The notes below the pieces were generated by a model that ran no database searches, was not told the DNA's origin, and saw nothing but the letters and a program-made list of their open reading frames with translations. Both the position numbers and the translations under genes were made by a program. DNA of 64,000 nucleotides from a virus. Shown piece by piece: positions 63,449-63,708 of this stretch; the stretch's first letter is position 1; each line of letters begins with the position of its first letter. Where the stretch lies: positions 44,752-108,751 of IMG/VR virus record IMGVR_UViG_3300032053_000002; one strand, given 5' to 3'.

Positions 63449-63708
63449 GATTAAAAGATTGCTTCTATAACCAGGATTCTGTATGGTATTTCTACCACGG
63501 TAATCATTTCTCTACCGGCGTTCTACCCGACCGTAAGTCCCGCTTACAAACCGGTCTGCTCGAACTTGCACGAAATCGTTCATTCGTTTCGCGTGGTACC
63601 GCGATATACTATAAAACTATCTCCCACACCAAGCGGCCCGTGTCCTGAGTTTCCTCTCGCGCCACTTATCGTGGTCTGCGAGCGATTACCCGAAACAATC
63701 TTTTAATC
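63449..63708 (-). ncRNA. rnpB: RNase P RNA (compact)
   Basis: About 260 nt. The ends form a 17-bp P1 helix (GATTAAAAGATTGTTTC with GAAGCAATCTTTTAATC). The 5' part has GAGAGGAAACTC-AGGACACGGGCC, matching conserved region I (GAGGAAAGTCC), and the 3' part ATACAGAATCCTGGTTATAG, matching conserved region V (ACAGAA...GGCTTA). It is shorter than usual bacterial RNase P RNAs (about 350-400 nt). It would trim tRNA 5' ends and fits the large tRNA set. Confidence 0.88.

Follow-up and report, generated by a model that had tools for sequence, protein, structure and literature searches.

RNase P is an ancient catalytic RNA that trims tRNAs. In a stretch of viral DNA of 64,000 nucleotides (positions 44,752 to 108,751 of the IMG/VR virus record IMGVR_UViG_3300032053_000002, 292,723 bp in full; hereafter, the window), a complete and compact gene for such an RNA, of about 260 nt, lies on the minus strand at 63449-63708. 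A preliminary description of this DNA had placed an RNase P RNA at these coordinates without naming a strand; the coordinates are exact, being equal to the ends of helix P1, and the strand is supplied by the present analysis. From 5′ to 3′, the RNA runs through P1, P2, P3, conserved region I, the 5′ strands of P5 and P6, a P7/P8-like stem, an extra hairpin, the 3′ strand of P5 followed by CAA, the P15-P16 arm, conserved region IV, the 3′ strand of P2, P18, conserved region V and the 3′ strand of P1. Its elements are placed as follows:

63692..63708, minus strand: P1 5′ strand, all 17 positions paired with 63449..63465, one pair being G-U
63449..63465, minus strand: P1 3′ strand, paired with 63692..63708
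63684..63690, minus strand: P2 5′ strand GGUAAUC, partner 63499-63505, paired in the RF00010 alignment
63656..63682, minus strand: P3 hairpin CUCGC..CCAC..GUGG..GCGAG, a two-part stem with a GAUAA loop, from the minus-strand fold
63643..63656, minus strand: conserved region I and P4 5′ strand, GAGGAAACUCAGGA, bulged U kept, 8/8 P4 pairs with region V
63639..63642, minus strand: P5 5′ strand CACG, a covarying helix with the 3′ strand CGUG at 63569-63572, then CAA
63631..63636, minus strand: 5′ strand of the P6 pseudoknot, CCGCUU, paired with AAGCGG at 63540-63545 (per-sequence P6 test)
63593..63627, minus strand: reduced specificity domain, a P7/P8-like stem with the phage motif GUGGGAG...CGCGGUACCAC, two covarying helices in alignment A1
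63571..63591, minus strand: extra hairpin CGAAA..UUUCG between P7 and P5, lacking in most relatives (alignment A1)
63520..63565, minus strand: P15-P16 arm, three covarying helices, read from the sequence
63524-63528, minus strand: L15 GGGUA, the predicted 3′-RCCA binding loop, read from the sequence
63504..63513, minus strand: conserved region IV, AGAGAAAUGA, next to the P2 3′ strand (RF00010 match, alignment A1)
63484..63497, minus strand: P18 hairpin with a GAAA tetraloop, from sequence and pairing
63468..63482, minus strand: conserved region V and P4 3′ strand, ACAGAAUCCUGGUUA, from its pairing with region I

The 17-bp P1 and the conserved regions I and V had all been claimed beforehand, and each is found at the positions given above. 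The RNA has the P4 pseudoknot of regions I and V with its bulged U, region IV beside the 3′ strand of P2 and, of the features of class A RNAs, the P6 pseudoknot and a P15 with GGU in its loop. P4 departs from the class A consensus through compensatory changes: three consensus pairs, G-C, C-G and G-C, are here C-G, A-U and A-U. Judged by this core, which is read from sequence, the window RNA is an RNase P RNA. What it lacks is the class A specificity domain (P9-P14, with conserved regions II and III), which reads the T-loop: 31 nt stand here against 110 model positions.

When all 4227 Rfam families were searched with a relaxed threshold, RF00010 (bacterial RNase P class A) matched 63452-63701 on the minus strand (250 nt against model positions 1-367; 66.1 bits, E 1.1e-19). 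It was the only family of the RNase P clan CL00002 retained at the locus, and the window RNA is the only RF00010 place in the whole virus record. The preliminary description had proposed the Rfam bacterial RNase P models as a check, and they do give this hit, though under the curated cut-off. The gathering score of RF00010 is 100 bits and the window RNA therefore escapes standard annotation; a cmscan of the window at the default gathering threshold reports tRNAs only and no RNase P. The low score is a consequence of the loss of most of the specificity domain, including regions II and III. The minus-strand fold (-94.5 kcal/mol) lies well below that of shuffled sequences (-71.7 +/- 4.8; z -4.7), none of 200 shuffles being as low. 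The plus strand carries the P1 inverted repeat as well, but RNase P models do not match it and its fold stands out less from its shuffles than that of the minus strand, while a match to snR50 over the same positions (E 8.9) was discarded as chance.

The fold has been kept under selection in a family of phage RNAs. Alignment A1 comprises 32 compact members, the window included, and it is the basis of our own covariance model, R1, to which the window RNA, as one of the 32 sequences, scores 75.0 bits (E 1.3e-15). For the helices scored (P4, P5, P7, P8, P15, P16 and the inner P16/17 stem), pairing holds in 96.8% of helix cells and both sides have changed in 25 of the 28 pairs, which is why we consider the fold to be selected. 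The covariation score was 0.723, against 0.187 +/- 0.014 after shuffling, and pairing fell to 31-42% when the registers were slid by 1-3. A blind search for covarying stems, given no structure, recovered P4, P16, P5, P15, the inner P16/17 stem and P8. Among 35 distinct combinations of regions I and V, the phages' own P4 partners form 8/8 pairs save for two at 7/8, and partners swapped between phages reach 8/8 in 4.2% of combinations. As alignment gaps blur P6, this helix was tested per sequence, with a mean of 6.6 bp for own partners versus 5.0 for swapped ones (swapped maximum 5.7 in 500 trials). The catalytic positions are invariant throughout A1, and the relatives share a P7/P8 motif specific to phages. 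Together, the RF00010 match, the presence of all the catalytic-domain elements and the covariation in the 32 phage sequences uphold the identity first proposed.

Relatives were found in about 60 virus records, mostly tRNA-rich, by pattern scans, R1 and blastn: 58 records match R1 below 1e-10, and LR756511, LR756502, Zooman and Big4 bring the count to that number. The first homologue, of 226 nt (E 7.9e-15), was met in the huge phage LR756508.1 (484 kb), which had been reached as terminase kin; a terminase of T4 type is encoded in the same record as the window RNA. R1 finds or confirms relatives in the huge phages LR756511.1 and LR756502.1, in Stenotrophomonas phage DLP6 and in the Microbacterium phages Zooman and Big4, the last three being isolates. 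Two successive patterns, the first combining L15 with regions IV and V and the second looser, added further members. A third pattern, built from region I and the shortened specificity-domain motif alone, gave 71 viral contigs. In 28 of them, regions IV and V follow downstream and P4 forms 7 or 8 of its 8 pairs, a check that is independent of the search; R1 recognises 50 of the 71. DLP6 and L105 are missed by Rfam at E<=1. Another pair of scans, with a different region V pattern, had a single match, L002, which was a chance one within a prophage. Full-size matches of 316-335 bits were taken for host rnpB at the edges of prophages or contigs and left aside, and two records were excluded from the evidence: G094, which lacks region I, and G108 (L226:10201-10407), which appears internally deleted. 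The RNA of G108 looks host-type, with a deletion from P12 to P15 that might reflect decay or another route of reduction. A second, less reduced type was also seen, with fuller RNase P RNAs of 167-192 bits in G071 (455,708 bp), G068, G065 and G064 (L229-L232); these lie in or beside tRNA arrays, and one record also has a tmRNA. Among the closest terminase kin (Mel-JY01, the immuto phages and fragmentary IMG/VR contigs), no RF00010 match was found, LR756508 being the sole exception; thus, the gene was not simply inherited with the terminase lineage. No kin came from a protein search with a glycosyltransferase/methyltransferase gene.

In size, the members make up a natural series that runs from nearly full length to 153-158 nt. 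The distance from region I to region V is 174 nt in the window, 136-186 nt in most compact phage members and up to about 293 nt in the fuller ones; in 111 bacterial loci it is 173-410 nt (median 307), in a set biased by the pattern used to fetch it. The smallest members, L118 (IMGVR_UViG_3300017714_003136, 158 nt at 9724-9881) and L158 (IMGVR_UViG_3300030102_006998, 153 nt), span only 98-100 nt, and their specificity domain is a short loop on P5. P6 is kept among the phage members and P18 mostly lost. The small size had been guessed to mark a minimal form, and the cutting of the specificity domain to a P7/P8-like stub, together with these even smaller relatives, bears that guess out. The P RNAs of Elusimicrobia, the shortest cellular ones met (173-191 nt between regions I and V), were considered as the same form and rejected, as they retain motifs resembling regions II and III.

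The relatives usually lie within tRNA arrays, with a tRNA in many cases tens of bases away. For instance, the DLP6 RNA (KU682439.2, about 105774-106018) occupies an unannotated gap before a tRNA-Arg in a cluster of 30 tRNAs (PMC5349666), with 7 nt between RNA and tRNA as read from the sequence, and in Zooman (OK040793.1, 89341-89551) and Big4 the RNA fills an unannotated gap of 215 nt between tRNA-Arg(ccg) and tRNA-Arg(cct). The 50 R1-positive contigs of the third scan have a median of 7.2 tRNAs per 10 kb, and 42 of them have at least one; by contrast, the median is 0 in the 21 R1-negative contigs, only 4 of which have any (p 1.5e-6). The preliminary description had credited the phage with more than 40 tRNAs; in the window, ARAGORN gives 40:

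21468..59259, minus strand: 40 phage tRNA genes, the presumed substrates (ARAGORN)

All 40 are on the same strand as the RNase P RNA, as are most long reading frames. A search for RnpA (PF00825), the bacterial protein subunit, found none in 15 records, the phage's own and those of 14 relatives, while the same search was positive in 10 of 14 control genomes. A CCA-adding enzyme was found above cut-off in 5 of 12 RNA-bearing records.

From the complete catalytic domain and the covariation, together with the lack of RnpA, the association with tRNA arrays and the strand shared with the 40 tRNAs, we consider it quite probable that 63449-63708 (minus strand) encodes a working RNase P RNA adapted to the phage, which acts with host RnpA to trim the phage's pre-tRNAs. 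In this model, the phage RNA would recruit host RnpA, a step suggested by the absence of a phage-encoded one, and the resulting hybrid holoenzyme would cut the 5′ leaders off pre-tRNAs made by the phage itself. L15 would bind the 3′ RCCA end of the tRNA once CCA is encoded or added and, with most of the T-loop-reading specificity domain discarded, the substrate would be recognised by its acceptor stem, leader and 3′ end. As a benefit, the tRNAs of the phage array could continue to mature while the host RNA pool is degraded or limiting.

Several observations weigh against such a function. The window RNA scores below the curated cut-off of RF00010 and has no regions II and III; the nearest tRNA in the window (59175-59259) is about 4 kb away, a looser linkage than in the relatives; and a search for a CCA-adding enzyme in the window's virus record found none. 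Moreover, several tRNA-rich jumbo phages have no match. As far as each was searched, neither Rfam nor R1 gave one in Phage G, Lak-A1, XacN1, Atu_ph07, PA5oct, RaK2, SCTP-2 or Phosso. Some of the IMG/VR contigs were not checked one by one as phage. Finally, it is not evident why a phage would need its own copy, as T4 uses host RNase P, whose RNA is relatively stable during infection (PMC9697503; reliance on the host enzyme also in PMC11143913).

Two other explanations deserve attention. The RNA could be a decoy that binds host RnpA and starves host RNase P, halting host tRNA maturation with no catalysis of its own. A stripped, protein-binding RNA in a phage without RnpA would suit such a competitor, but the bulged U in P4, the GGU of L15, P6 and region V are all kept though unneeded for simple protein binding, the phage tRNAs themselves need RNase P, and the association with tRNA arrays is strong; consequently, we regard a decoy as unlikely. 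Alternatively, it might be a working RNase P RNA with main substrates other than phage tRNAs, such as phage mRNAs, tRNA-like structures or host pre-tRNAs. Non-tRNA substrates of bacterial RNase P exist (PMC4919922), losing T-loop recognition would relax specificity, and the window tRNAs lie kilobases from the RNA. However, the placement of the relatives' genes in tRNA arrays, down to the 7 nt seen in DLP6, makes this reading improbable as well.

The idea of a decaying, non-functional copy of a host rnpB acquired by chance may draw on the missing regions II and III, the sub-threshold Rfam score and the deleted, host-like RNA of G108; it is contradicted by the compensatory changes across 32 divergent phage copies, by their common phage-specific P7/P8 motif and by the invariance of the catalytic positions, and we hold it to be very unlikely. 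Bacterial contamination or misassembly, which the full-size host rnpB at the edges of some IMG/VR contigs (327-335 bits) might suggest, is hardly credible, given that the RNA shares its strand with the 40 tRNAs and the majority of long reading frames, the terminase in the same record and the relatives in the finished isolate genomes of DLP6, Zooman and Big4.

The window RNA resembles class A RNAs such as E. coli M1 RNA (RF00010) in P1-P6, P15 with GGU, P16, P18, regions I, IV and V and the bulged U of P4. However, at about 260 nt it is shorter than the 340-420 nt of that class, has a P7/P8-like stem as specificity domain with no regions II/III, shows compensatory changes in P4 and is encoded by a phage without RnpA. 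With its score below the curated cut-off and no regions II/III, it is best read as a compact, phage-borne variant and not as an ordinary member. Archaeal type P/T RNAs (Pyrobaculum) likewise retain the catalytic domain with the specificity domain nearly all gone (PMC4919922). By contrast, the phage RNA is viral, has a bacterial-type core with P6 and L15, and presumably works with one bacterial RnpA where the archaeal RNA has several proteins; at first sight, the two losses are separate. An engineered E. coli RNase P RNA reduced to its catalytic domain is active, with P18 dispensable and a contact mimicking P6 important for activity (Mao 2018, PMC5839562); that RNA was made in the laboratory, whereas the phage RNAs look like natural examples, in which P6 is genuine and covaries and P18 is mostly lost. 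The RNase P RNAs of candidate phyla radiation bacteria also escape curated thresholds, and several are without P12-P14 and P16-P18 (Lui et al. 2021, PMC8172020), but they come from cellular genomes and are less reduced. Lastly, the theta ribozymes of gut phages adjoin phage tRNAs and have been proposed to act in tRNA maturation (PMC10879173); unlike the RNA described here, they are cis-acting, resemble the hepatitis delta virus ribozyme, cut at the tRNA 3′ end and have an unrelated fold.

Other features were noted as well. A tRNA with a CUA anticodon at 29878-29951 (minus strand; tRNA-Pyl according to ARAGORN) may be an amber suppressor, and DLP6 also carries a CTA suppressor tRNA. A tRNA with a four-base anticodon (caga, ARAGORN) at 36953-37028 (minus strand) could be a frameshift suppressor or a mis-call. 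A T4 RNA ligase 1-like protein (PF09511; 53267-54442, minus strand) is a possible tRNA repair enzyme, and a 562-aa Ro60/TROVE protein (18580-20268, minus strand), an RNA quality-control protein, has a TROVE and a vWA domain. PAS-domain proteins are encoded in the phage genome, at L006:3493-4995 and at window 24007-25185, one of them with a part that by sequence resembles a histidine kinase and receiver. Just upstream of the RNase P RNA, overlapping its 5′ end, a reading frame of 51 aa (63666-63821, minus strand) may be a chance one or a leader gene. Farther upstream, at about 63852-63880, there is a promoter-like TTGACA-17-TATATT, a kind of site no commoner here than in shuffles.

As far as the open literature searched shows, RNase P RNA had been described in cells and organelles only. 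No phage-encoded one was found in open-access papers, subscription papers and most preprints lying outside the search, so that priority is uncertain. RNase P goes unmentioned in the paper on huge phages where related genomes made their first appearance, and an Rfam screen of megaphages gave only tRNAs and a tmRNA (PMC8172020). Such RNAs have gone unnoticed because they score under curated thresholds and because annotation pipelines assign nothing to the gaps that hold them. It seems rather likely that they make up a widespread, unrecognised class of virus-encoded RNase P RNAs, with a specificity domain naturally discarded down to a total of about 155 nt, providing tRNA-rich phages with an enzyme for tRNA maturation, autonomous or hybrid with the host, that is tuned to their tRNA arrays. 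Such RNAs may act without any protein or together with RnpA from various hosts, and the isolates that grow on Microbacterium foliorum make their function testable now. The size series, in turn, makes the minimal RNA for RNase P and the role of the specificity domain directly testable. With members in the tRNA arrays of phages of several hosts, one of the oldest ribozymes would be extended to viruses, and a catalytic step would be added to the phage translation toolkit.
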